Positions 4,222 through 58,576 of a stretch of DNA of 64,000 nt are shown here, piece by piece; position 1 is the first letter of the stretch; every line of letters begins with the position of its first letter. Source of the stretch: Cliona cf. orientalis (Eukaryota; Porifera; Demospongiae; Clionaida; Clionaidae); assembly GCA_963930775.1 (NCBI GenBank), contig OZ005689.1, positions 25,604,058-25,668,057 on the forward strand, written 5' to 3'. The notes below the pieces were generated by a model. It was not told where the DNA came from and searched no databases. It worked only from the letters and a program-made list of their open reading frames with translations. The position numbers and the translations under genes are program-made.

Positions 4222-4277
4222 GTATTAGCATTGAGACGAGCAAGACAGAGAGAGAGAGGGACAGAGAGAGAGAGGAG

Positions 4278-4308
<31 letters not shown>

Positions 4309-4385
4309 GAGGGAGAGAGAGGGAGAGAGAGAGGGAGAGAGAGAGAGAGGGAGGGAGGGAGGCAGGGAGAGAGAGAGAGGGAGTG
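4222..4385 (+). repeat. GA-rich microsatellite
   Basis: About 160 bases of (GA)n and (GGGA)n purine runs. On the minus strand the tract is open in several frames, so the upstream Ulp1/PHD reading frame runs on into a Ser/Leu/Pro tail that is not a real domain. Confidence 0.9.
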
Positions 4386-4419
4386 AGACAAGATAGATAC
4401 ATGTATATGCATTTATACA

Positions 4420-6651
4420 TGTACATGTATATAATAGAGGGAGAGGTAATATATCCCAGAGAGAGAAACATAAGAGAGAGAGGATGGATCGGTAATCAAT
4501 ACATGTGGCCACACCTGGGTATACTGTATACAACAAAATACTAGGTAGAGTTTCACATGATTTACACTTCCAGGGGACATCTTTTTTTTCAAAAACATAG
4601 CTAGGAACGTCCATGCAGTGTTTGTGGTACCAGGTTTTACATACATCACACTCGGCCATTTTATCACCTATTTCCTCGGGCAAGCGGCAGCAGCAGTGAA
4701 GGTCCACTGACTGGGTGTGCCTGACACCAACAATCCTGCGCTCACCGACCGCTGGGAAGCGAGAGAGGCGATATTTCTCCAAGCACTCTGCAAAGTGCTG
4801 CCTCATAGACCTGTGATCGTACTTGATCTTGCATGGGTCATTACCACTGCAAATGTCGTATGTAAATGCTAAGGCAAGGACTCCACAATCGGAACCATTT
4901 GACTGCCTTCCAACATCCATCATTCTCACTACAAGCTGTTTAGCAGGACTGAAAACAAGGCTGGCAATCAATTTGACCGTCCCACTGGAAGCACTGGAGT
5001 ACATGCTGTCGTACACATTGACCACTCCATCGTCACATCCAACGTTGGAAATAGTACACCAGTGACAGCCTCCAACAAAGATGATCTGCACAAATTCTCC
5101 TCTGAGGATTTGGAACAATAGACTCCTGTGAACTGCCGGATCTTGCAGGCCGGCTATGTTTGGGAATTCCTGCAAGATGAGCAACTGACCGACCCTAATG
5201 ACTGTGTCTGAGAGCCAACCATCAGATGAAACAATTTCCCGTTTCTTATCTACGTGCAAGGTGTATAGTGGAGTGGACACCCAGGTGTTGCTTACAACTG
5301 CAGAACCATCGGCTGAAGACAAGGCTGTGGGATCGTCAGTCAGGTCAACAACATGCTCAACAAAAGTCTTGGTTAGGCCACAGCTACACACTTTGAGATT
5401 TGCAGAATCATTTGCTACATCTCGTAGTGAGATCCTTCCTGCAGTTCGCCAGTTGTCTACTGAAATGGATAGATCACCGCTGATAGCCATCAACTGCCCC
5501 TTTGCATAGCCAGTAGTGAGAACTCCCTTGTGACAACATAGTAGGCATCGATCACCAAACACTTGCACAACGCAGCAAGGAAGGTGACATTTGCCCAATT
5601 TGCTATCATGCAAATTCACGCAGTCACCCACCTTGAAGTTGGGCCTAGGCTTTTTCGCTGGGGGAGGCTTCTCACCACCTGGCTTTTCTCTCTTTCCTCG
5701 ATGAGTGGACCTTGTATCGACCGGCTTGCTTGCTTTAGGAGGTTTGGATTTCACACAATCATCATCCTTGCCATTCTTGTCAGAGTCAGCAGAAGAGGCC
5801 TTGGGAAACAATGTGCACCCAACGTAACGATTTCGTGAGTTTGAGGGGCAATCCCTCTTGTGTGCTCGTCCGAGCGCTCCGCACACGCAGATACCACTTA
5901 GTACGTCATCTTCAAAACACCAACTAGTGTCACCAGTTGGGGTAGGCACACTTTTTTCCAAAGAAATGCTTTCTGCGTCTGACAGGGTATCCTCAGAATA
6001 GGAAATGACATCATTATTGTCAGATGCTCTGTCATCCACAGAAACACCACTTCTCTGATTTTTGATGTTCAAAGGACATTCACTATGGTTGGTACGTAGG
6101 TGAGTGGTGGACCCACACTTGCACGTCCCTCCAGTTGTACGCTTCTTCTCTCCTTTTCGTTTGAGTTCATCTTCGTCTATGTCACTGTCGTCACTGCCAT
6201 AGGTATCATGGCCATGCTTCTTTGACCACAGCTTGCAACACTGTGCATCCACTGTTCGCTCAATTTTCAACTGTATTTGCCTCCGCTTGGAGGAATCGGT
6301 CTTTTCCTGATCTAAATACATCTTTCTCTGTCGATTGAATGTCTCCAGAGCAGCCTGAACACCATCAAATACAGGTAGCTTCAGACGCTCAAACAGCTCA
6401 ACCACCCAATGATATTGTGGCCCACGCTTCTCATACATGTATATCATGTTGGATTGCAGCAGAGCCAGCTCGGTTGAAACCACATAGTGTAGACTCTCGA
6501 GGAAGATGTGCTTTGGTCTGAAGCGAATGAACACATTGTGGGAGGCCTCCAACCAATTGGAATGCCCCCTTTTAAGAATGGGGTGAACCAGCTGTTCAGC
6601 CATTTCTGCTCTCTCATGGCATTCAATTTCGTAAGCCAGAGAGTGGAAAGG
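4420..6651 (-). pseudogene. Ulp1-like cysteine protease with C-terminal PHD finger
   Basis: Continues the transposase frame after TGA at 6652-6654. An N-terminal part (MAEQLVHPILKRGHSN, then EASHNVFIRFR) is still transposase-associated. An acidic, Cys-rich linker and a Lys/Pro-rich basic stretch follow. The Ulp1-type core shows the expected triad: His in GGCHWCTISN, Asp in NVYDSMY, and Gln plus Cys in RQSNGSDCGVLALAF. Ulp1 proteases cleave SUMO or ubiquitin-like proteins, so the domain may act on modified host proteins; that is inference. The PHD finger runs from CCCRLPEE through CDVCKTWYHKHC to WKCKSC. Downstream the frame passes into a GA microsatellite, so the true C-terminus is probably lost. 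Confidence 0.75.
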
Positions 6652-6654
6652 TCA

Positions 6655-7980
6655 TGTCAGTGCATGCCTTGTGTGATAGTCTGTTCCTTCGCACTTCAGA
6701 TCCTCTCCATCCTCACACTCACCACAGCTGCATACTGGAAGTTGGTGAAAGTCACACCTACCAAACCCCCAATCGTGCTCGTCGCGGGTATGTCTGGCCA
6801 ATCTTTTCATCCTGGTTGCAAACTCTTCGGCAGATTCACTCATCGACAAAATTAGTGAAAAGTAGTTTCTAGCCTTTTCAATAAACGCCTTGGAGAAGCA
6901 ACCACATCCCTATTTGTGCCTTGAGCAATGACAGACCACGTCGCCAACAGAGGGAAAAGTGTCTTTATACTTTCTTATTAAATCAACAGTGAAGGACTTG
7001 ATTTTCTGCAGCTTTTCCAGCTGCTTCTTGTGGGCCCTACCGGCATGCCCACCACAGATCATGATCTCTGCATTGGGAAAGTGGTCTGTCACTGCCTTAG
7101 CAGAGGAGGAGTCGGCATCTTGCCACTGAATGGCAATGTTCATCCCTTCCTCCTTGGCTTTTTTGAACGTAAGGCGTGCGGCATAGCCTTCGGCGCCCTT
7201 GGAGGTCCCCTGGTATAGCTCTTCTTCAATTATGTCATCTCTGCCTTTCTCACAGAGATGCTTGCGGTAAAGAAGAGCTCCATTGTAGTAGTTTCGAATG
7301 CTGAAAGTAGCATTCTTGCTGTGATGACTACGTGTCATCCACGTGCCGTCAGCGGACGTGACGGCACGACTCCATGAACCCAGTTCATTTTGGTCCATGC
7401 GTTGCATGTCATCCTTTGCATCACTACACATCTTATCGACCATCTCTTTAACAATAGGGTACATTCTCTTGACGGTCGAGTCAAACATTGGCCAACTAAC
7501 TCCTTCAATCCCAAGTGCATGCTTCAATACCTTGTAGTAAGTCACATGCGTGCAACCAGCTATGATAAAAGCCACCTGCGCAGCAATACCAATTTCGGTA
7601 GCACAGCCAAGTTCGTATTTAGATGATGTTTCAAACAATGCCCACTGACTAGCACAACCGTTACAAGCATAGGTGATAGAAAGAGCACCACCCAGCCCAA
7701 GGCTTTTCACATGAATGGGACACAATGCACCTTTACAACCAGGTGTGGCACAACGTATTTGATTCACTTGCTTGATTAACTTGTTCAATTGTTTCAAGTC
7801 CATGAAGCAAATACTTGATGGAATACATGACATACTTTCTATCCTCTCTCTAACCTTTCTTTGAGGGATTGGAACATGCAGGGAGCCATCATTACTCTCC
7901 ACTGTCACGTTGAGACTGTCAGTCTCTTCATCACCCTCCACTGTCACATTGAGACTATCATTATTTGACGTGGGAGTATC
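6655..7980 (-). pseudogene. Mutator-like DDE transposase region
   Basis: The catalytic part of the element. On the minus strand the frame begins after an AG acceptor (7981-7982) with an acidic segment holding a small duplication (DSLNVTVE twice). A Cys-rich zinc-binding segment follows (CATPGCKGALCPIH and YACNGC). Candidate catalytic acids are the Asp in SADGTWMTR and the Asp in WQDADSSSAK. CGGHAGRAHKKQL comes next, matching my memory of metazoan Mutator-like transposase domains. The frame reaches CHCSRHK, hits TAG at 6910-6912, and continues without a frame change into GCGCFSKAFIEKARNYF. The third acid was not assigned. The single premature stop suggests recent decay, unless it is read through. 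Confidence 0.65.
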
Positions 7981-11749: not shown

Positions 11750-12930
11750 TTTTCACCCAGCATTTTCAATGGGATCGGCAAGTTGAAAGGAGTGGAAATA
11801 AAGCTCCACATCGACCAGTCAGTACCCCCTGTTGCTCAGCAAGCCTGACGAATTCCATTCCATCTACGAAAGAAAATTTGAGAAGAGCTGGACCATCTGG
11901 AACGGCAAGGAATTATTGAAAAGGTAGACGGTCCGACGCCATTTGTGTCCCCTGTGGTGGTTACCCCAAAGAAAAATGGTGATGTGCGCATCTGTGTTGG
12001 CTAACAAAGCAATCAACCTGGAACGACACCACACCAACCGCAGATGATTTGATCCACATCCTGAACGGAGCAATGGTGTTCTCCAAGTTGGATCTCAGGG
12101 CTGGATACCACCAACTCACCTTAGCCCCCAAGAGTCGCTACATCACAACCTTTGCCACTGACAAAGGACTCCGTCGGTACGTTCGACTGAATTTTGGAAT
12201 GAATTCCGCTAGCGAGCTTTTTTCAAAAAGCGATCAGCGATCTGCTCCGTGACATCCCCGGAACTCTGAATATCAGTGACGATGTCATAGTTTTTGGCAA
12301 AATACAGGAAGAGCATGATGCTGCACTCAAGGCAGTGTTCCAAATGTTTGCAGAGGTCAACCTGACTTTGAACAAGAAAAAGTGCGAATTCAACAAAAAG
12401 AGCATCACATTCTTTGGGTTCGTGTTCTCAGGACAAGGGATTTCTCCTGATCCCAAGAAAGTGGAAGCCATAAAAAAGCCACCAACAACAACCAGTGGTG
12501 TGAGAAGCTTCCTTGGAATGGCCACATACTGTGCGAAATTTATCCCAAATTTCAGCGACATCTCAGAACCACGAGAGTTGACGAATAAAGATGCCCAATT
12601 TCAGTGGAGTGAGCAACATGAGCAGTCATTCAACAAAATCAAAGAGCTCCTTGCAAGTGCTAAAGTAATTGCCTACTTTGACCCGAAAAAAGAAACTGAG
12701 CTAATCACTGATGCCTCTCCCTCAGGATTGTCTGCCATCCTGATGCAGAACACACCAAGACAAGAGTATAGACGAATAGTTGCATATGCCAGTCGATCTC
12801 TCACCGATGTTCAAAGACGCTATTCTCAGACAGAAAGAGAAGCATTGGCAATTGTCTGGGCAGTCGAGAGACTTCATCTCTACCTCTTTGGTGGTCATTT
12901 TTATTTGATCAGACTGCAAGCCTGTTCACC
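11750..12930 (+). pseudogene. reverse transcriptase and RNase H remnant
   Basis: RT starts with a LFNGIGKLK-like segment followed by VDGPTPFVSPVVV and PKKNGDVRIC. FSKLDLRAGYHQL and YVRLNFGMNSASE follow. The catalytic YxDD region is represented by ISDDVIVFG after a frameshift near 12235. The thumb and connection segment (KCEFNKKSITFFGFVFS, VRSFLGMATYCAKF) leads into RNase H with ELITDASPSGLSAIL and SQTEREALAIVWAVE. At least four breaks separate these blocks, including stops near 11847 and 12001. This is established Ty3/gypsy architecture; the copy cannot make one protein. Confidence 0.8.
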
Positions 12931-13099
12931 TGATCTTTGGCAACCCCAAATCCAAACCACCGCCTCGCATTGAACGCTGGAACTTGCAACTCCATGGTTA
13001 CAATTTTGAAGTCATGCACACCGAAGGAAGCCAAAATCCATCTGACTTCTTATTCAGCCTCGAGGAGAATGACAAGCAAGGTACTCTGGCGGAAGAGTA

Positions 13100-23194: not shown

Positions 23195-23378
23195 GAATAA
23201 AATTGAAGGATGAAGTAGGGAAGACAGTGCTAAGAAGTACACAAACAAGATTTGTAGGGATAACGTATCATATCCACTATACATCCCCACGCTTGCTTTT
23301 CTCATTTATCATGATCAATGACCTTCGAAGTTGGCACCTATTATTGATGTGCATCAACCTGTTAGTGCTAGAATACCC
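23195..23378. mobile_element. left part of a piggyBac-type MITE, split by the 6.1 kb element
   Basis: AAATTGAAGGATGAAGTAGG (23201 on), then ACAAACAAGAT and TGTAGGGATAACG, recurs as the inverse at about 29685-29800. The same ends bound the piggyBac element at 56938 and 61218. This segment and 29461-29815 therefore look like one short non-autonomous piggyBac relative of about 0.5 kb that received the 6.1 kb insertion at ATACCC. Confidence 0.8.
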
Positions 23379-25621
23379 GGTGAGTGTACTATCCGGCCAG
23401 TCTGAATTCAGAATCAACACTACTACCAATCACCTGAATTTACTGTGCATAATTCAATATTCAGCTTCATGGACTCGTTTATTGGTTGAATTCAGTCTTC
23501 AGTTCATGAAATAGTGAACTCTTGGTTTCTGAAAGCTGAATTCTGAAATCTATTCGATTTTCTGTTTACCGATTGGTCTATATCACAGTTAACCGAGCAC
23601 TAAATCTACACCAAGTTTTAGCCTTGAAATCGGTCTAATTTCTAATTCCTAAATCTCAGGCTTCAATTTTGGTTTCCAGCCAAGTCACATTCAGAATGAA
23701 GGGACTGCACCTTGTCACCAAACCCTGTATGAGCGATTTCAGTATCTGTACTATACGCCCATTGCATTTCTTGCCTGAATTTCTACTTTGATACTTGTAT
23801 GATAGCTGAATTCTCAAACTGCCATGCAGATCCAGTATCCTGATTTCACGTAGTGTAATACTGAATTGCGCATGCGTGATTTTAAATAGAGCCCCCCTAT
23901 GCATAACCGCGCGGCACTACGTACGTAGCTACATATGGTCATAGAGGCAGGCCCAGTGACTGTCAGACACTACGCCTAGCTGGTGGATCAGCGATATAGC
24001 TATATCCAGACATGATGAACGTGGAGAGTGTCCAACTCTCAAGGGGTGACCTCAGCATCGCCATATCAACCGAGGATTTGACAGTAAGCAAACTTCCAAA
24101 TATTAAATCATATAAAATTGTAATAATAGTATTATAGCCCATCATCTGTGTCTTTAATTTGATACCATGCCTTATACTTGTAATAAACCTTCGCCGCTTG
24201 GCGGTTGGGGATGTGCAAACCAGCATTAAACATCCAGGGCAACCGTTGGCAGCTACTAGGCTCATGGGTGTTGAAATTTTTTTTTTTTCACAGGGCTGCG
24301 GCCAGGCCACAATAGGGGCTATCTGGCTATATTGAAAATCATGTGCCTGCTTATCTCTCACTATACAGGTTGATAAAATAGCACCACTGTTTGGGCTTGA
24401 TCCCATGCGTCCCATTTGGCTTGTGAAGAAGCAGGGGAACTTGGCTGTGTTTCCTCGCTCCGGATCTGGGAGGTTTGAAGGACACTTGATACAGCCAGGT
24501 GATGTGTACGAGGTTAAGGGTCACTGTGAGGGTTCAAATGGTGGGAGCTCCCCCCAAGCATCAACAAGTGCTGTGCAGTCTGCCAGTGCATCGTTTGGTG
24601 CTTACGCTATGCCGACCTATGCGCCACCACCTCCTCACCCACCTGTCGTTAGTCGAAAGAAAACCTGGCGGAAGACGATTGTGCTCGTCTCCGTGAAGAA
24701 ATCTGTGAAAGGGAAAGAGAAGAGTGGTGCAGTTTGTTACGATATCATAACACAGGTGGTTGTTAATCTCAGCCCGGCTACTTGCAATGTCAGGGAAGTG
24801 TCCCAGCTGGTTGCCAAGCAGGTGGATTTTGAGGTTGTTTTGCTTGATTCAAAGGGTTATCCTCTGCTGGATAACGACAGTACTAGTGGAGAATCGTTTT
24901 GGAAGAGTACGAGGAAAATCCTCGCAGCAAACAAGCAACTGTATCGAAAGGTGACTGGCCAGAATACAAACATCGAGAGAGCCAGCATCGACCTCACAAA
25001 AGACGACAGCTCTGACGACTCTGACATACTGCTGCCACCAGTCAAACTGCGCAAGTGTGAATTTGGAGACTCGTCGGTAGTTCTTATTGCTGATAAGATT
25101 GAAGATATCTCCAAGCAAGTGTCTGGTCTAGCAGAGTCAATCACCTTCATGCAGAATATGCAGCGCTCCCTGGAGTGCGTTGTGTGCAAAGGATTGGTCA
25201 GGAGTCCTATTGTGTCCAAGTGCTGTGGACGAGTGATCGGATGCAAGCGTTGTGTGAAGAGATGGCTTGATGTCCATGCCACCTGCCCTCATTGTTCTTC
25301 CGTTATCGAGGAAAATTTCCCCCTCAAAGGATTTGACGATGTCATCTCCTGCTTGCAGTTTGCTATGGATGAAAAATTACCCACTCCTCGAGGCTATGAG
25401 TCATTGTCTTCATCTGAAGCCAGCGGTTTGGATTGAACGTCCGTACATTTTCATTGAACTCAACTTAGCAGGCTCCCCTCATTGCTGCATCTATCATTTT
25501 CACCAATCGTCATTGATTGGGTGCTCTCACTGTGATTTTCTATCATAGCCATTATTATTATTATTATTACCCTTTATATGCCATTCCTATGACCTTCGTG
25601 CTCACTCCAGTGCCTGTGAGC
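23379..25621 (+). repeat. left inverted arm of the 6.1 kb element
   Basis: Matches 27219-29460 on the opposite strand over about 2243 bases. I saw only a few differences: one T fewer in the poly-T run near 24290, a silent change in the RING gene near 24608, a change near 25055, and a short difference around the CATGAAATAGTGAAC segment near 23507. Inner homology stops near 25621, where the right arm carries an extra GCTAG-like insertion. Confidence 0.9.
24012..25436 (+). CDS. RING-finger protein, left-arm copy (two exons)
   Basis: Exon 1 is 24012-24083 (starts MMNVESVQLSRGDLS) and ends at a GTAAGC donor. Exon 2 is 24369-25436 after a TATACAG acceptor, phase 0, giving 379 residues. The N-terminal part (WLVKKQGNLAVFP, then GDVYEVKGHCEG) is a compact domain I cannot name. 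A Ser/Pro-rich linker and a Lys-rich segment follow. The C-terminal RING-type zinc finger spans about residues 294-333: ECVVCKGLV, then KCCGRVIGCKRCVKRW, then CPHC. RING domains usually act as ubiquitin E3 ligases with an E2 partner; that activity is inferred. The copy at 27404-28827 encodes the same protein. Carriage inside the inverted arm suggests a role in the element's own life cycle or in disarming a host control protein. Confidence 0.85.
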
Positions 25622-25860
25622 GGCATTGTGTAAATTTTTTGTGACTGGCCAGAATGCAAACACATGTCATTGTACATGTACACATTCGTACATGCATTCA
25701 CAGAATTAAAAATTGACCCGCAAACAAATTCTTGTATAGTCTATCAATAATGTGATAGTAACTACTTTAATGTTGTTCTCTTCCCCCCGGCCCCCACCCC
25801 ACCCACTCCTCTTGTTATTCTTATTATAGCACGCTTGCCACTTCTGAATCTTAGGAGAGC
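25622..25860. other. spacer between left arm and integrase gene
   Basis: Single-copy centre sequence, including a C-rich tract (25782-25812). No motif strong enough to call a promoter was found, though it must hold the integrase start signals if the gene is expressed. Confidence 0.35.
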
Positions 25861-26883
25861 ATGGAGCTGCTTGGTCGATATGAAAATATTATAAAAAGTT
25901 TAGTAGATAGTGGAAAAACCTACTCTCAGATAAGTCAATGTCTAAGAAACAGTCATCCTGGAGTACCTGGACTATCGGACCGAAGTATACGCCGATTTTG
26001 TAAGAGCAGAAACATACAATATCGAAGCCACCTTACTACTGCGCAGCTTGACTGTATAGTTACTCAAGCTGTAAGATCTGTTGGGCATTCGTATGGCAGG
26101 AAGACAATCCAAGGACTGCTCAGAAGCAAAGGTATCCGTGTAGGACAAATCAAGATTGGTGAGTCTCTTTCAAGAGTTGCGCCACACGCGATGAGTCTAC
26201 GCAGAGGTAATGTGCATCGACTTATTAATCCACCGCCATACTATGCTCTAAGCTATGGAGAAAAGGTTCATTTGGACCAAAATGAAAAGCTTGCTAGGTT
26301 TGGTGTCACCCATGTTGCGGCAATTGATGGCTATAGCAGAAAAATTGTTGGTTTTATCACCATTCCACGAAAGAATGCAATTGCTATTTACCACGCCCTA
26401 TTCAAGCCTATGCTGATAAATGAAGGTTTATGGGAGCAAGTTCGAGTTGATCATGGCAGGGAGTTTGCTCTTATCATTACAATTCAAAAGGAGCTACAAT
26501 CTTTGAGGCGTAATAGTAATCACCGCCCAGTACTTCAAAGTATGTCAACCCAAAATCACCGGGTTGAGCGCCTATGGCCAGAGATCAATCAACGAATTAA
26601 TTATCCTATTAAAAGGATCTTAGTCATGATGGAATCTGCTGGAGAATTAGACTTAAGCAATGATAAGGATAAATTTTCTGTATCCTGGGTAACAATTACT
26701 GTGTTATCACACCCATTGTCGGAATTTGTCCAGGCATGGAATCACCACCGAATTGCTGGATCATCAGGAGGAATTCCCATACACCTTGCATGCAACAATA
26801 ACTCTTTAACTCCCATTCCATCCACAGCTGTCCCCCAAACGAACCAACTATTGACATATTTAGACGAAATGGTGGACACCTAA
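25861..26883 (+). CDS. IS3-like DDE integrase/transposase with a late frameshift
   Basis: A 340-residue frame. An N-terminal helix-turn-helix (IIKSLVDSGKTYSQISQCLR) and an HSYGRKTIQGLLRSKGIRV segment resemble IS3 transposases. The rve core has the catalytic acids Asp139 (HLDQNEK), Asp197 (VDHGREF) and Glu236 (NHRVERLWPEIN), spaced 57 and 38 residues apart between the acids. NYPIKRIL and WNHHRIAG follow. From memory, related animal proteins continue past this point. Here a neighbouring frame from about 26845 reads DIFRRNGGHLTPESTFGRD and stays open to about 27088, so a 1-base change near the CCCCC run at 26831 probably cut off the true C-terminus. The core is intact. The gene is the only one in the single-copy centre of the 6.1 kb element and supplies its mobility. 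Confidence 0.82.
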   Translation: MELLGRYENIIKSLVDSGKTYSQISQCLRNSHPGVPGLSDRSIRRFCKSRNIQYRSHLTTAQLDCIVTQAVRSVGHSYGRKTIQGLLRSKGIRVGQIKIGESLSRVAPHAMSLRRGNVHRLINPPPYYALSYGEKVHLDQNEKLARFGVTHVAAIDGYSRKIVGFITIPRKNAIAIYHALFKPMLINEGLWEQVRVDHGREFALIITIQKELQSLRRNSNHRPVLQSMSTQNHRVERLWPEINQRINYPIKRILVMMESAGELDLSNDKDKFSVSWVTITVLSHPLSEFVQAWNHHRIAGSSGGIPIHLACNNNSLTPIPSTAVPQTNQLLTYLDEMVDT

Positions 26884-27218
26884 CTCCAGAATCAACATTT
26901 GGAAGAGATCTTCTCGTAAATTATCCCCGCTTACAAATACTTCGTACGAGAGATTTCAACTTGAGGTATCCTGCTCTGACCTTAGTTTTTGAAAATGTAT
27001 TACATGGTGATGGTACTTTATTTAAAGGTTGTATCCAGTATTTTACACAACTCACGGACAACTTGTTTACTCTAGTTAATGACCAATAGTGCTATAATAT
27101 TAATTTTGTTTACAGGTTAATATTTCCTACCATTCTGTGAATAAGATCAACATTGAGTGTATCTCATGAATATCCCATTAAGGGACATGACAACAAAAAT
27201 CACAATTATGCCGCTAGC
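26884..27218 (+). pseudogene. frameshifted C-terminal tail of the integrase and centre spacer
   Basis: In the +1 frame the sequence reads TPESTFGRDLLVNYPRLQIL, then FNLRYPALTLVFENVLHGDG and LFKGCIQYF, stopping near 27088. It is protein-like and continues the integrase family pattern I recall. The rest to 27218 is A/T-rich spacer before the right arm. Confidence 0.55.
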
Positions 27219-29460
27219 GCTCACAGGCACTGGAGTGAGCACGAAGGTCATAGGAATGGCATATAAAGGGTAATAATAATAATAATAATGGCTATGATAG
27301 AAAATCACAGTGAGAGCACCCAATCAATGACGATTGGTGAAAATGATAGATGCAGCAATGAGGGGAGCCTGCTAAGTTGAGTTCAATGAAAATGTACGGA
27401 CGTTCAATCCAAACCGCTGGCTTCAGATGAAGACAATGACTCATAGCCTCGAGGAGTGGGTAATTTTTCATCCATAGCAAACTGCAAGCAGGAGATGACA
27501 TCGTCAAATCCTTTGAGGGGGAAATTTTCCTCGATAACGGAAGAACAATGAGGGCAGGTGGCATGGACATCAAGCCATCTCTTCACACAACGCTTGCATC
27601 CGATCACTCGTCCACAGCACTTGGACACAATAGGACTCCTGACCAATCCTTTGCACACAACGCACTCCAGGGAGCGCTGCATATTCTGCATGAAGGTGAT
27701 TGACTCTGCTAGACCAGACACTTGCTTGGAGATATCTTCAATCTTATCAGCAATAAGAACTACCGACGAGTCTCCAAATTCACACTTGCGCAGTTTGACT
27801 GGTGGCAACAGTATGTCAGAGTCGTCAGAGCTGTCGTCTTTTGTGAGGTCGATGCTGGCTCTCTCGATGTTTGTATTCTGGCCAGTCACCTTTCGATACA
27901 GTTGCTTGTTTGCTGCGAGGATTTTCCTCGTACTCTTCCAAAACGATTCTCCACTAGTACTGTCGTTATCCAGCAGAGGATAACCCTTTGAATCAAGCAA
28001 AACAACCTCAAAATCCACCTGCTTGGCAACCAGCTGGGACACTTCCCTGACATTGCAAGTAGCCGGGCTGAGATTAACAACCACCTGTGTTATGATATCG
28101 TAACAAACTGCACCACTCTTCTCTTTCCCTTTCACAGATTTCTTCACGGAGACGAGCACAATCGTCTTCCGCCAGGTTTTCTTTCGACTAACGACAGGTG
28201 GGTGAGGAGGTGGTGGCGCATAGGTCGGCATAGCATAAGCACCAAACGATGCACTGGCAGACTGCACAGCACTTGTTGATGCTTGGGGGGAGCTCCCACC
28301 ATTTGAACCCTCACAGTGACCCTTAACCTCGTACACATCACCTGGCTGTATCAAGTGTCCTTCAAACCTCCCAGATCCGGAGCGAGGAAACACAGCCAAG
28401 TTCCCCTGCTTCTTCACAAGCCAAATGGGACGCATGGGATCAAGCCCAAACAGTGGTGCTATTTTATCAACCTGTATAGTGAGAGATAAGCAGGCACATG
28501 ATTTTCAATATAGCCAGATAGCCCCTATTGTGGCCTGGCCGCAGCCCTGTGAAAAAAAAAAATTTCAACACCCATGAGCCTAGTAGCTGCCAACGGTTGC
28601 CCTGGATGTTTAATGCTGGTTTGCACATCCCCAACCGCCAAGCGGCGAAGGTTTATTACAAGTATAAGGCATGGTATCAAATTAAAGACACAGATGATGG
28701 GCTATAATACTATTATTACAATTTTATATGATTTAATATTTGGAAGTTTGCTTACTGTCAAATCCTCGGTTGATATGGCGATGCTGAGGTCACCCCTTGA
28801 GAGTTGGACACTCTCCACGTTCATCATGTCTGGATATAGCTATATCGCTGATCCACCAGCTAGGCGTAGTGTCTGACAGTCACTGGGCCTGCCTCTATGA
28901 CCATATGTAGCTACGTACGTAGTGCCGCGCGGTTATGCATAGGGGGGCTCTATTTAAAATCGCGCATGCGCAATTCAGTATTACACTACGTGAAATCAGG
29001 ATACTGGATCTGCATGGCAGTTTGAGAATTCAGCTATCATACAAGTATCAAAGTAGAAATTCAGGCAAGAAATGCAATGGGCGTATAGTACAGATACTGA
29101 AATCGCTCATACAGGGTTTGGTGACAAGGTGCAGTCCCTTCATTCTGAATGTGACTTGGCTGGAAACCAAAATTGAAGCCTGAGATTTAGGAATTAGAAA
29201 TTAGACCGATTTCAAGGCTAAAACTTGGTGTAGATTTAGTGCTCGGTTAACTGTGATATAGACCAATCGGTAAACAGAAAATCGAATAGATTTCAGAATT
29301 CAGCTTTCAGAAACCAAGAGTTCACAATTTCATGAACTGAAGACTGAATTCAACCAATAAACGAGTCCATGAAGCTGAATATTGAATTATGCACAGTAAA
29401 TTCAGGTGATTGGTAGTAGTGTTGATTCTGAATTCAGACTGGCCGGATAGTACACTCACC
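27219..29460 (-). repeat. right inverted arm of the 6.1 kb element
   Basis: Inverse copy of 23379-25621 and near-identical throughout, including the intron of the RING gene and flanking non-coding DNA. Intron identity shows that whole-arm homogenisation or recent origin, not protein-level selection alone, keeps the arms alike. Confidence 0.9.
27404..28827 (-). CDS. RING-finger protein, right-arm copy (two exons)
   Basis: Mirror image of the left-arm gene. Exon 1 is 28756-28827 and exon 2 is 27404-28471 on the minus strand, with the same GT..AG junctions. The predicted 379-residue protein is identical to the left copy as far as I can compare. The C-terminal RING zinc ligands (CVVC, CCGRVIGC..C, CPHC) are intact. 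The two genes converge on the integrase. Neighbouring non-coding differences, such as one A fewer in the poly-A run near 28552, show that this is a separate locus and not a coordinate error. Confidence 0.85.
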
Positions 29461-29815
29461 ATACCCTTTTAAGTATTCTTGACTTTATGCTTGTCAGAGA
29501 ATTTCACATTGCCCCTCAGCCTAGCTCATCCCGAGGTCACTCGGGGAGCCTGCAGGTCATTGAATGTTTGACTCGTGAACTTATGAAGGGGGATACATGT
29601 ACTCAGTTAATATTTTTATCTCTATGCATGTGGGCGTAATTAATTTTATGCTCTCCCGTTATATAGCTACTCTAAAAGCAAGCGTAGGGATGTATGGGAT
29701 GTATAGTGGATATGATACGTTATCCCTACAGATCTTGTTTGTGTACTTTTTAGCACTGTCATCCCTACTTCATCCTTCAATTAATTTCTATTCAATTATT
29801 TTTTACACTTGTCCT
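29461..29815. mobile_element. right part of the piggyBac-type MITE split by the 6.1 kb element
   Basis: After ATACCC, single-copy sequence leads to AAAAGCAAGCGTAGGGATGT, then TTATCCCTACAGATCTTG, and finally CATCCCTACTTCATCCTTCA. This is the inverse of 23195-23310. Removing 23379-29466 would rejoin one short element. Confidence 0.8.
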
Positions 29816-34740: not shown

Positions 34741-35183
34741 TATGTTATAATATAACAATAGTAATTGTGAAATATATGTCTATGTGTAGGCCGTAAATAA
34801 ACCCCTCATGTAACATGTCCACAACCTTGGGGAGCAGGCTGGGTGAGTAGGGAGAGTTCCCCCGGGGACAAAGAGCTCTTTTAACCTACCATTCCTGGTT
34901 CTCAAGGCCAGGCACTCAGCACCCCAATGCACAAATTATATAATACTAAGTAATGAGCATAGACTATTGAATAGCAGAGTGTTATTACTGAACCAACAAA
35001 CTATTTTATTGAGGGGAGGGGGGAGAGTATCCTAGAAATAAAATGAACATGTTATGTACTAAAGGTGAACCAACGGGAACCAGTTGAACGGTCACAGGAA
35101 ATGGTGACAAAATATTCCATTTAGGAGCATATGATCTGCAGTCATGGACAGTTGACAGACGTCCCTCCCACCCATTTTCTTTT

Positions 35184-35184
<1 letters not shown>

Positions 35185-35230
<46 letters not shown>

Positions 35231-35256
35231 ATACACATACATATACACATACACAC
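35185..35256. repeat. CA microsatellite at the end of the Helitron OTU region
   Basis: A long (CA)n run lies just past the OTU-like frame and extends it spuriously as a Cys/Val tail. Confidence 0.9.
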
Positions 35257-35720
35257 AAGTGTTTAACATTGGGCTAAAGTCAAAATTTTTAACATCCGAA
35301 CCCCACGTTCTATTTCTGCCCATGTGAGTGCCTTCAATATACGCAGTGGCACTGAGACCCCGGTCACTGAAATGGGGCAACATCCAACGCTCAATAAGGC
35401 GTAAGTGGTTGATAATTGCCTGACGCACTTGTGCGTGCTGTCGTTCAGTTCCAGATATGAGATAGGAAAAGGAACGGAACGAACAGTTGCCATCTCCTTT
35501 AATGGGTCGGCACCTACATGGTTGAGTGAGATGGACATTGGGACCGCCTTCACCTAGGTCACACTTTGTCACAGGCTCTGTCTATGGGATGGAATCTGAA
35601 TGGACAGGTTCCACTTCCTCCCTGTACATTCACAAGTACGATGTCATGGTCACTAGCACGTGGCACCTTGTTGGGTTTATCACAATCACTGCTCAGTGGC
35701 AGGGACCTTTTCCTCGTCTT
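35257..35720 (-). pseudogene. OTU-like cysteine protease domain of the Helitron
   Basis: The minus strand gives VPRASDHDIVLVNVQGG and FRFHPIDRACDK, then (after a break near 35570) IKGDGNCSFRSFSYLISGTE with the OTU catalytic Asp-Gly-Asn-Cys, and VRQAIINHLRL further on. A WGSDV segment near the end fits the region before the catalytic His. OTU proteases remove ubiquitin-like modifiers. Here the domain is C-terminal to the helicase, as in known Helentrons. It has at least one frameshift and its end is lost in a CA microsatellite. Confidence 0.75.
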
Positions 35721-38689: not shown

Positions 38690-40390
38690 CTCTGTAGATA
38701 TAAAAGTTTTCATGACCATAAATTTAGTCTGTACTTTGTCTAAGTTGTAAGGCTCGCTCACGTGATCGAACTGGACAGTTACGCGTTCGCTTGAGTTGGA
38801 AAGTACCGTGCCGAGGGCACCGTTTACCAGTCCAGCTTTGGTATAATGTTACGACGTAGCATGACTCATGCACTGACAGCTAGCAATAGCTTAGCTTCCA
38901 AACCAGCTGTCCTGCTACAGTCGTTGAGCATTTCCAGCTGCTCAATGGCCTTTTTGTTCTATTTTTTCGTCGACGAAGTTTGGTTGACTTTGTCTGTACA
39001 CACTATTTCGTCCACCTCACTGCTCAAGTGATGGAGCATTTCACTGTTGAACTGTTTGCACATTTCCCTCGTCGGAAACAGACACTCCAGTGCCTCACCC
39101 AACTGCTGCAGCTCATTGAATTTTTCAGCCTCAGCTACTTGAATGACTCATTGCTGAAGTGTTAAAATAGTTTCGTCGGTTGGACAACCGCACCTCACAC
39201 AGTCCAGCATCGTGGCGAATTCTGCATCACTGTTCTGGTGCTTGTTAATGGTGAGCTTGTCGTAAGCAACCAAGTCTTACCAAATGTTAACAGACGCAGT
39301 CCACCCCAGTTTGTGCAGAAGTGCTTTTTGTGTGATGTTTTGAAATACAGGATTTCCGTTTACTGGTTGCAGTTGAAGTAGATCTCCAACAAACATGTTC
39401 CTACAACCAAACCACTCATCGCCACCGAACAGCTCTTCCAGTCTCAAATGCATGTACGTCAATGTGAGACTGGACACCATGGATATTTCATCCACAACTA
39501 TCAATTTCACACTGCACAATTTGGTCTTCATGACCTTCTGCAAGACTTTAGATAGTGACCAATATTCAGCCGACTTACCCTCGTGCTCTATGGGCAGCTG
39601 AAAGAGCCTGTGAATGGTCACATCTCCAATGTTGAAAGCAGCTAAACCAGTGGGCAAATCTTTCCTACTATGAGCTTTATGGCTTCAGTTAGGAAAGATT
39701 TACCCGTACCACCTACACCACTGACAAACATTCGAAGTGGCTTGAAGTCACACTGACACTCACCGGTTTCGTGCTGCTTTTGGTGTTGAAGGTGATTATC
39801 CACGGTGTCAAATATACACCACTGGTCGGCATTTAGCATGGCTATCCTGTCCTCAAAGCTCAGCTGATCGGATGTGGAGTGATTTACAAGCATATCTGCC
39901 ATGTCATGCATGGCAGTTTTTGCTTTACCCATCAACTGAGGGTCGTTGTCGTCCTTGTTGACCCTCTTATCCTCACCATCAGCCTTTCTAGCCTCCTTGA
40001 TCTCTGTCATCTTAGACTGTGCATCCAAGATCTTTTGCAACTTATCATGGTAGGCAGAGCTGTCCTCATTCATCAGCCTGTGAAAGGCCTCCTCTGCCGT
40101 TTCATTATCGAGAAGCAGACTGCTTTCATCTCTGAGTGGAACAAAGAGAAGTATGAGAGTAGAAGTAGTCCTCTTGTTGATTCTCCTTTTGAGGATCAAA
40201 CAACTTGTGGTTTGGTAGACATGGCTTTTTGAGCTTGGTATACTGCCTATTTCCGTTATCGTTATTACTTTACCACGAGTAGTTGGCCACCAAGTCATAG
40301 AGACAGACGTCTTCCAGACTATCCGGTCTCTTGGGATAGTGTGTGTCCAATAGACTCTCTTCGTATATATCCTTGTTGTTTGGATCATGC
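38690..40390 (-). pseudogene. Helitron Pif1-type helicase, main part
   Basis: Minus strand. An acidic/Lys-rich leader is followed by DRIAMLNADQWCIFDTV and Walker A in FVSGVGGTGKSFLTEAI. After a shift near 39660 come GLAAFNIGDVTIHRLF, Walker B in LIVVDEISMVSS, and FVGDLLQLQPV. In further frames downstream come VMLRRN (near 38850) and HVSEPYNLDKVQTKFMVMK (near 38720). These are Pif1/RecD-like motifs that unwind DNA during rolling-circle transposition. At least four breaks occur. The remaining motifs are displaced to 35950-36860 by insertions. Confidence 0.82.
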
Positions 40391-40469
40391 TGGGCCAGCT
40401 GTTGTAACTCTCTGTGGTCCTTCAGCCTACCTACCTACGGCTTCTTTTCTTTGGCATGGACACGTCTAT

Positions 40470-41490
40470 CTACTTGACAGTAGTGGATTTTTCAGTGAGG
40501 TAATCGCCAAGCAACAAATTGCTGGCCTCATATAGGCCGCACTCTCTAGAGCGCAAACTCCGTACACCAAAGTTCCAGAGCCAGCTGTGAATGCTCTTGT
40601 TGTCACTCACCTCCTGCCAAATCTCTTGCATGCCACTTTTCTCAGCCTTAGTGACATAACCACTAACATAGTGAGCTAGAGCTAGCGATGACTCTGCTAC
40701 AAACTGAATGTCAATGTTGGCCTTCCATAGCAATAGCAAGAGTGGGTTATAGTCATTGACTCTAGTCTCTGACTCCACACGTGCCAACTGGTATATTTTG
40801 CTACACGACTTGAGACTGTCGGTAACAGGATTCAACTTGGTGCTCTCACAAGGTATCCGTGGAAAACCAAATTTACATCGGGTAATAAACACGTTACCAT
40901 ACATACTTTCTTTTGCGCTTGCAATAGCCACTAAACTTGTGCATCTGATACCTGGTGATTAGGTTGTACAATTCAGGATCGGATTCCTTATTAGGAATGT
41001 GACAGGTTATCCTCTCCTGAATCCACCCTAGCACCTCATCGGGGTCATCTCGACCTATCACTGGTGCATCTTTGATCCACAGAAGGACATGATAGTGTGG
41101 GGCACCACGCGCTTGGTATTCCTTTTTCCAGTAAAAGTGGACTACCGTACCAAGCACCTCTCCTTTCTTCACTACCCTTTGAATGAAAGAGTGGAATTTT
41201 CGACTAAAGTTGCGCGATACTGATATCCGATCCTCTGTGCAAAGCTTCCCTACATTATAGCTAGAGGGAACATCGTTTACCTTTCTGAGGTGGTTTTCAA
41301 TGTCAGGAGACTCGTACTCGGCACAGCTATATGTGAGAAACAGTGCAGGTGAACCCCACTTGCGTATCATACACCTCAGTTCACTGTTTTTCACAAACCA
41401 GTACTGTTTTGTGCTGCGTACCGACTGAAGCATGCATTGTGCAGAGATTCGCTTCGGGTTGCTCGTTGTTGGCCTGTACAATGCATGCTC
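40470..41490 (-). pseudogene. Helitron HUH replication initiator (Rep) region
   Basis: The minus strand shows SPALFLTYSCAEYESPDI, then the HUH motif in ARGAPHYHVLLWI (about 41080-41115), then the Tyr-containing segment PELYNLITRYQMHKFS (about 40925-40975), which nicks and joins DNA ends in Helitrons. After a shift near 40915 the frame continues with RCKFGFPRIPCESTKL and ALAHYVSGYVTKAEK. The two histidines and the tyrosines are present, but shifts separate them from the helicase. Confidence 0.85.
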
Positions 41491-41865
41491 AAGAGTGTAC
41501 CAACAGTCATAGGCTCGCTTCTTCTAGACTGTTTCAACATATTGTACATACCGGCAGAAAGCTCTCACATTTCTTTTTGCCACAGTAAGTAAAAAACATA
41601 CTGTGGGTCTTTTCTGCAGTGGGAATCTTTATTGAGCAACGTCTATTATCAAAATCACTGTGGGAGATTCACATCACATGGATGGTATTTACCACATTTT
41701 CCAGTGGGATACAACTTGGGAAAGCACATTATATCGAGGTGCTGCTGTCTATTGTCAATGGGATCTTCTCTGACACTCAACAGTTTGTACTGTTCAATGT
41801 CAGATTCAGTTGAAAGCTTGTCAAGATTTCTGATCGTGAAAGCCTGAAAGCCAGATATATCATGC

Positions 41866-56937: not shown

Positions 56938-58576
56938 AATTGAAGGATGAAGTAGGGATGGCAGGATCACAAAGTACACAAACAAGATTAGGGATAATCA
57001 CACAAACTATACATCCCTACGCTTGCTTTTCTTGATTATCATGCGCCTATTGATTGTGACCCATTGGTGCTATCCTTAACTCTTTGGCTACGAATGTTAT
57101 ATATATATTACGCGCGCGCGTACCATAAAATACAAATGTTATATATATAAAACGCGCACTGCCATCAAGAAGATAAGTTCGCGCCGGCTACTCCGGCCAC
57201 ACCCAACGGCTGATAATTACCTTGGGGAGACGACGCATGCGCTGTACTATTGCTAACAATCCTTAGCGGTCTTGGAAGCAATCGATTACAGCTGCACACA
57301 AACGTTCTTGTGGTTGCCTTGTGGTAGACTCTGGAAGCCCCCAGCTGGAAACTGTATTTCCTGTTGAGCTATCATGAGCAGACTGACACAGAGGAGGCAC
57401 TGAATCTGATCCTTTCTGATGATGATGAGGCTGATAGTGATGGTGAGTTTGCTGAGCCTATGTGTCCTGGAAGCGATGAAGAGTTTGACTTCGATATTGA
57501 TGATCAAGAATTATTTAGTTTCAACCTGAGGTACAACAAAAGTAGAGTATGCATAATATGAAATTATACAAATTTACTACAACAATAGTAACGAAGAATC
57601 TAATCCAAAGGAGGGAGATCATGAAGCTGACAGTAACAGCGAGTCATCAGGTGCAGCTGCTCACACTCTAGATACTATGAGCATGGATGTGTGCGGATAT
57701 GTTGGTGTATGAATGCATGTGCATGTCATGGGTGAGTGCATGTGTGTGAGAGAAGGGACTAATAAACATAAATAAACCTGTAAATGAAAGTGGTATGTGT
57801 AAATATAAAATGAACATATAAGGTCATGCAGTATCATACATACACTAACTACTTTCACAGATGAACCAGATTGTACTAATCCTGACTACGACATCCATAT
57901 GCAAACTCCAAGGTAAGAAGGCACATACACTTACAAACACTAGCAAGCATAATGGGTATACATCATTTAGTTGTACCAGCAGTGAGGATACACCTGAAGT
58001 AGCTCCAACACCAAACCGTAGCCGGTGTGATCGTGCCAGGCGTGGAAGAGGGAGAGGTTGTGGTATGGGACGTGGTCGTGGCAGAGGTCGAGGACGAGGA
58101 CGTGGAAGTAGACGTGGACCAGGATCAGGTTTGAGGGGTAGGCAGAACAGTAGCAGTTCATCATCATGGAGCTCGAATACATCCCCAATCATAGTACAGC
58201 CCTTCAGTAGACCTGTTGGCCCGGCTGTAGCACCATCTGCCTGCATCCTAGAGTTGTTCAAGATTTTCTTCACCCCAGAGCTTATCAATCTCATTGTTGA
58301 GCAAACAAATCTGTATGCAAGCCAAGTAGTGACTGATGACCAACATTCCCGGTGGCTGCCCGGATTTTTTCTCTTCCAGCTAGCTTTAGGATGTAGATGG
58401 GGTGATGAGAGTGTGTGTGCCCATCCTTGTTAAGCTAAGAACTTTCATGTAATTACTATTGTTGGGGCTCTGTGCTTTGGTGATTTAATTATCCCGGCAG
58501 ACTCCGTGAACGTAGTTTGGGTATAGGGTTGACTTTCGCCCTTAAAGCTGGAAGGGGGGAGTTCGGGTGCCTAAGG

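Follow-up and report, generated by a model that had tools for sequence, protein, structure and literature searches.

A sponge DNA transposon whose giant inverted arms each carry the same gene for a predicted RING-type ubiquitin ligase

We analysed a 64,000-nucleotide stretch of the genome of the demosponge Cliona cf. orientalis (contig OZ005689.1, designated C1; C1:25604058-25668057, hereafter the window) and found a 6,082-bp element in which a central DDE integrase gene lies between two giant inverted arms, each with the same RING-finger gene. The element is probably a DNA transposon that carries its RING protein, a predicted ubiquitin ligase, as a second factor beside the integrase. It sits at two sites with different 6-bp target-site duplications (TSDs), and RING genes stand next to related integrases at about twenty loci of the same genome.

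Results

The element has defined ends, a target duplication and a second copy

Positions 23379-29460 of the window are bracketed by two copies of ATACCC (Table 1). Recomputation of the inverted repeat gave a left arm of 2,244 bp and a right arm of 2,243 bp around a centre of about 1.6 kb, in agreement with the original prediction, which had placed arms of about 2.24 kb between ATACCC repeats. Over 2,244 bp the two arms differ from each other by 4 substitutions and 1 one-base indel, and their RING genes point inward.

The insertion lies in a host repeat that has inverted ends of its own. The joined window flanks matched 45 places, 2 of which were the window's own flanks, and all five host-repeat copies that were read run uninterrupted across the insertion point. 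Three of these (L074, L075, L076) hold a single exact ATACCC and two (L073, L077) a one-base variant; some uninterrupted sites carry small indels beside the ATACCC position. Together with the flanking ATACCC copies, the five uninterrupted paralogous sites establish both a 6-bp TSD and empty sites.

In a search of the 217-Mb assembly (149 contigs), where counts for the arm, the integrase and the RING protein are lower bounds, the left arm had at least 4 matches: both window arms and both arms of a second element at C7:8374174-8380247. This copy is 6,074 bp long, 99% identical, in the opposite orientation and flanked by GAAGAG. No solo arm was present among the left-arm matches listed genome-wide. 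Across five elements, including the three relatives described below, the 6-bp TSDs read ATACCC, GAAGAG, TACAAG, GTGTAT and ATTAAT. Defined ends, a target duplication, several copies and empty sites, the last being paralogous sites in other copies of the host repeat, are what a transposon should have, and they support the earlier proposal of a transposon with giant gene-bearing arms.

The central integrase matches PF24764 (Pfam search, E 7e-27), and the putative catalytic residues named in the original prediction, D139, D197 and E236, are invariant across 21 aligned integrases. All 21 family members match PF24764, 3 of 21 match HTH_21 and 2 of 21 match rve. This enzyme likely cuts and pastes the element with a 6-bp stagger, and would act on the GRT...GTACT ends described below.

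The arms are homogenised, and giant arms are one form of the family

The four arms of the window and C7 copies were compared over their first ~2,230 positions. One copy differs from the other at four places, by 3 substitutions and a 9-bp deletion, and each of these is present in both arms of a copy; eight events are confined to one arm, and no difference in this four-arm comparison was common to same-side arms of different copies. Since it is implausible that the same four changes arose independently in both arms, the arms are homogenised, presumably through gene conversion or because they are rebuilt when the element transposes. Arm-to-arm gene conversion, probably in gap repair after excision, would keep both RING genes identical.

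Not every member of the family has giant arms. A 5,680-bp relative at C1:28.35M has 86-nt inverted repeats at 84% identity and the TSD TACAAG, and a 6,194-bp relative at C17:2.27M has 251-nt inverted repeats at 98% and the TSD GTGTAT. At C1:31.05M, where only the ends were read, a motif pair delimits 6,177 bp with the TSD ATTAAT. Each of the three has one RING match and shares GRT...GTACT ends with the window element, and giant arms are absent from the two whose interior was read. The C17:2.27M and C1:31.05M elements are close sisters in the integrase tree and therefore do not count as independent lineages. The element ends that we read are GGTGAG..CTCACC, GATGAAG..CTTCATC and GGTCTGTG..CACAGACC. 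The GRT...GTACT pattern was derived from the ends of the window, C1:28.35M and C17 elements, and its use lies in inverted pairs that bracket an integrase and a RING gene among the 100 places listed.

Two more diverged loci are palindromic, with RING genes in both arms that point outward: C4:509313-519587, with 3,269-bp arms at 99.85% identity, and C1:28.19M (L070, C1:28193400-28202400), whose arms measure about 2.9 kb and are 99% identical. The L070 arms also include the integrase N-terminus, and at this locus no match covered the catalytic core from about residue 76 to residue 231; the palindrome resembles a defective derivative. Giant arms either had several origins or are ancestral and were then reshaped.

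The arms could be a functionless accident, produced by inverted duplication of an element with short terminal inverted repeats (TIRs) and one RING gene. This explanation concerns the arms only and is compatible with a RING ligase, and we give it somewhat less than an even chance. In its favour, relatives with short TIRs and a single RING gene exist, the inclusion of the integrase N-terminus in the L070 arms is what a random breakpoint would produce, and gene order and orientation differ among loci. Against it, two sites, each with its own target duplication, hold the palindrome in intact form, three diverged loci are palindromic, and the arms of the window and C7 copies are homogenised.

The RING protein is a predicted ubiquitin ligase

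Each arm of the window copy encodes a RING protein of 379 amino acids (aa) in two exons joined by GT-AG splice sites; the two arms have exon 2 at 100% identity, in line with the earlier report of one 379-residue gene in both. A profile search recovered 63 relatives, among them the Amphimedon queenslandica protein P0166, whose N-terminus is by eye homologous to the product of exon 1. In collections of non-animal sequences, no RING relatives were confirmed in prokaryote genomes and no relatives in viral contigs.

The protein has eight zinc ligands in RING spacing, as RING-type ubiquitin ligases do. All eight cysteines are present in 24 of 26 aligned proteins, nearly all 26 retain the cysteines together with W323 and P331, and zf-RING_2 is matched at E 0.01 or better by 25 of 26. 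Tryptophan and proline at these two positions are the usual E2-contact residues of RINGs. The protein models as two ubiquitin-like folds, a coiled coil and the eight-cysteine RING, and the RING resembles those of the ligases RNF8, Rad18, PRC1 and BRCA1. This likeness may hint at chromatin or repair proteins as targets, a weak hint because RINGs resemble one another. The eight cysteines, W323, P331 and the fold matches strengthen the prediction of a ubiquitin ligase. The original prediction of an element-encoded ligase is thus borne out in that the RING gene belongs to the element, while the ligase activity stays a prediction. Such a protein would recruit an E2, and its substrate might be the integrase or else a host factor for silencing or repair; as an anti-silencing factor the RING protein could help the transposon against its host.

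A rather unlikely alternative is that the RING protein works as a subunit that binds DNA or the transposase and not as a ligase, with the RING and coiled coil dimerising and the ubiquitin-like folds serving as adaptors. The window protein's RING Pfam scores fall under the gathering cut-offs, and the last RING cysteine lacks a basic residue directly after it (CPHCSS), where many active RINGs have a linchpin arginine. Such a subunit would not readily account for the retention of the E2-contact residues along with the cysteines.

RING and integrase genes travel together

The integrase had at least 120 genome matches and the RING protein at least 55. Among the matches listed, 25 of the 55 for RING have an integrase match no more than 6 kb away, and 28 of the 55 have one no more than 15 kb away; in 1,000 random placements on the same contigs, for some of which sizes were approximate, the means were 0.45 and 1.1 and the maxima 3 and 6, respectively. 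Just one of the best 28 RING matches has no integrase match within 15 kb, namely C2:14.34M, which is part of a cluster resembling host RING genes. The 27 linked matches form 21 loci, 19 besides both query copies. Several of these are near-identical in the integrase tree (C1:18.53M/C13/C6; C2/C1:22.32M; C17/C3/C1:31.05M), so that independent lineages number fewer than 21. At two of the 21 loci the genes are only loosely paired, 7.7 kb apart at C1:20.62M and 13.7 kb apart at C3. A local comparison that used 26 RING and 21 integrase proteins revealed two further linked loci, L023 and L065. Counted from the other gene, 17 of the 23 best integrase loci (E under 2e-22) are RING-linked within 15 kb, plus one by local comparison. 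The original prediction had named, as grounds for its refutation, genome copies in which the two genes never travel together; the 21 loci, with both genes within 15 kb, contradict that condition.

The linked integrases are 36–58% identical over the aligned stretch. RING-linked loci are spread over several separated branches of the integrase tree, the sole use made of this tree, which is query-anchored and in which a long outgroup branch joins among the query copies. Among the protein hits, RING and integrase relatives on same-sized contigs (P0160/P0040, 5,121; P0010/P0046, 271,591; P0018/P0059, 4,663,597) suggest that the members of each pair share one contig. The orientation of the RING gene relative to the integrase varies by locus: divergent upstream, same strand downstream, or convergent. 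The listed relatives of both genes cluster in the right half of C1, at about 16-37 Mb.

It is improbable that the RING gene was captured from the host and is a mere passenger that brings no benefit. Hosts commonly encode RING proteins, and host-like RING matches do occur in this genome (C2:14.33-14.37M), but these rank lower, the pairing recurs with integrases as diverged and as scattered in the tree as described above, and relatives' open frames of up to 396 aa are present in many assemblies.

Comparison with known transposons

IS3EU elements make 6-bp duplications and have TA..TA ends in complete families, and GingerRoot elements combine a 6-bp duplication with TA..TA, occasionally TG..CA, ends, according to the family descriptions in PMC10045372. 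The window element shares with both an IS3/IS481-type DDE transposase and 6-bp TSDs; as far as those descriptions go, it differs in its RING gene partner and its giant arms that contain the RING gene, and the elements of its family differ in their GG..CC or GA..TC ends. Membership in either family was rejected on the termini. The earlier label IS3-like therefore holds for the IS3/retroviral-type DDE integrase and is not supported for membership in IS3EU. In the 1.5-kb flanks of 13 integrase loci (L028-L034 included) no terminal repeats were readable as element ends, and the distant integrases thus cannot serve as an IS3EU yardstick. The element works like IS3EU and GingerRoot without being filed as a member of either, and is best filed as a variant of the IS3-like eukaryotic transposons.

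Polinton/Maverick elements, about 15-20 kb long, carry an rve-type integrase, long TIRs and genes for a protein-primed polymerase, an ATPase and a capsid. The window element resembles them in its rve-type integrase, its long TIRs and its 6-bp duplications, which PMC10045372 lists for Polintons; at 6 kb it has no polymerase-sized frame, its longest frames being RING (366 aa) and integrase (342 aa) with all others at or below 185 aa, and this assignment was rejected as well.

Accessory genes beside the transposase are described for fungal IS3EU elements, namely a TET/JBP dioxygenase and an alpha-kinase (PMC12730594), and the RING gene is likewise carried beside a transposase. RING fingers encoded by DNA transposons are described for Chapaev, TransibVDJ and RAG1, where the RING is fused to the transposase and that of RAG1 shows ubiquitin ligase activity (PMC4411706); in the window element the RING protein, with its ubiquitin-like folds, has a gene of its own, and the integrase beside it is of an unrelated DDE family. 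KolobokP has a similar composite look, with an internal region between two long repeats, but its repeats are direct and about 450 or 660 bp long, and it encodes a Kolobok transposase and a His-Me finger nuclease, by the account in PMC9587614. Long TIRs are also found in Drosophila Galileo, exceeding 1.5 kb in some copies (PMC4168063), and in Tetris/Foldback elements (PMC4079207). Galileo, unlike the window element, uses a P-superfamily transposase. To our knowledge, no protein gene lies inside the arms of Galileo or Tetris/Foldback, and we know of no long-armed element whose two arms each hold a conserved protein gene. A literature search of titles and abstract openings, covering few subscription papers and Repbase Reports to an uncertain extent, returned no transposon whose arms hold a RING gene.

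Other features of the window

The minus strand at 4225-7980 holds an 808-aa frame that contains a PHD finger and matches an Ulp1-type peptidase just below threshold, adjoined by a 356-aa frame without a Pfam match; this region is possibly another transposon with a SUMO/ubiquitin-related protease. Further features are a long terminal repeat (LTR)-type retrotransposon fragment with reverse transcriptase and RNase H (12203-12973), a sub-threshold OTU-like fragment (35006-35581, minus), a Helitron-like N-terminal domain with a sub-threshold PIF1-like fragment (39642-41523, minus) and an RG-rich frame with a weak sub-threshold match to DDE_Tnp_1_7, of piggyBac type (57849-58433).

Table 1. Features of the window element and its insertion site (window positions).
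Feature	Position	Strand	Basis or remark
Host repeat receiving the insertion	23201..29782	.	Outer inverted repeats 23201-23287 / 29696-29782
Left TSD, ATACCC	23373..23378	.	Sequence comparison; matched against paralogous uninterrupted sites
Left giant arm, 2,244 bp, terminus GGTGAGTGTACTATCC	23379..25622	+	Recomputed inverted repeat
RING gene exon 1, left arm, 24 aa	24012..24083	+	Splice sites present in all four arms
Predicted GT-AG intron, left arm	24084..24368	+	Predicted from sequence
RING gene exon 2, left arm, 355 aa + stop	24369..25436	+	Holds RING, about aa 292-345 of protein
DDE integrase frame, 340 aa, PF24764	25861..26883	+	C-terminus lost by frameshift
Frame with out-of-frame rest of integrase C-terminus	26802..27089	+	Open reading frame
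Right giant arm, 2,243 bp	27218..29460	-	Recomputed inverted repeat
RING gene exon 2, right arm	27404..28471	-	Open reading frame
Predicted intron, right arm	28472..28755	-	Predicted from sequence
RING gene exon 1, right arm	28756..28827	-	Sequence, splice sites
Right TSD, ATACCC	29461..29466	.	Sequence

Discussion

Besides the sub-threshold RING scores, several observations weigh against a DNA transposon with a ubiquitin ligase as its second factor. The exact element was found in two copies only, and the integrase of the window copy is damaged: a frameshift near the 3′ end stops its frame after 340 aa, against about 400-410 aa in most full-length relatives and 409 aa in the C7 copy, and the missing C-terminus is readable in another frame. 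The residues claimed originally are in place, but the gene is not intact. In Foldseek, no hit of the integrase model reached E 0.001 and only 1 of the RING protein did, and the ubiquitin-like fold calls come from a model with a predicted template modelling score (pTM) of 0.38. Five of the 23 best integrase loci (C1:26.01M, at 54% identity, C18:3.73M, C1:32.71M, C1:18.42M and C1:35.92M) have no RING match within 15 kb, and no RING gene was found in the 9.4-9.7 kb read at the first two (L066 and L068). The named integrase relatives that protein search found outside the sponge, in a hemichordate (Ptychodera flava) and a fish (Paramormyrops kingsleyae), have no known RING partner there. The end pattern by itself is unenriched (330 genome matches vs 445 for a reversed control), and no target duplication was seen at the ends of the C4 and C1:28.19M palindromes. 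A false inverted duplication, long identical palindromes being a known failure of assembly, is rejected as far as the assembly allows and has a negligible chance, given arms that differ within each copy, a second contig copy with its own target duplication and uninterrupted host-repeat sites.

A transposon with a RING ligase as second factor remains our preferred explanation. With more reserve, we propose as a tentative generalisation that there may be an animal transposon lineage in which the element's own ubiquitin ligase is the constant second factor, and in which some members store the gene twice, in mutually rewritten arms that would serve both as transposon ends and as a self-repairing gene pair.

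That about twenty loci pair an IS3-like integrase with a separate RING gene suggests a use of the ubiquitin system by transposons themselves. The pairing lends itself to tests of transposon counter-defence or of control over transposase turnover, and the homogenised gene-bearing arms provide a natural case for how palindromic transposon ends are maintained.

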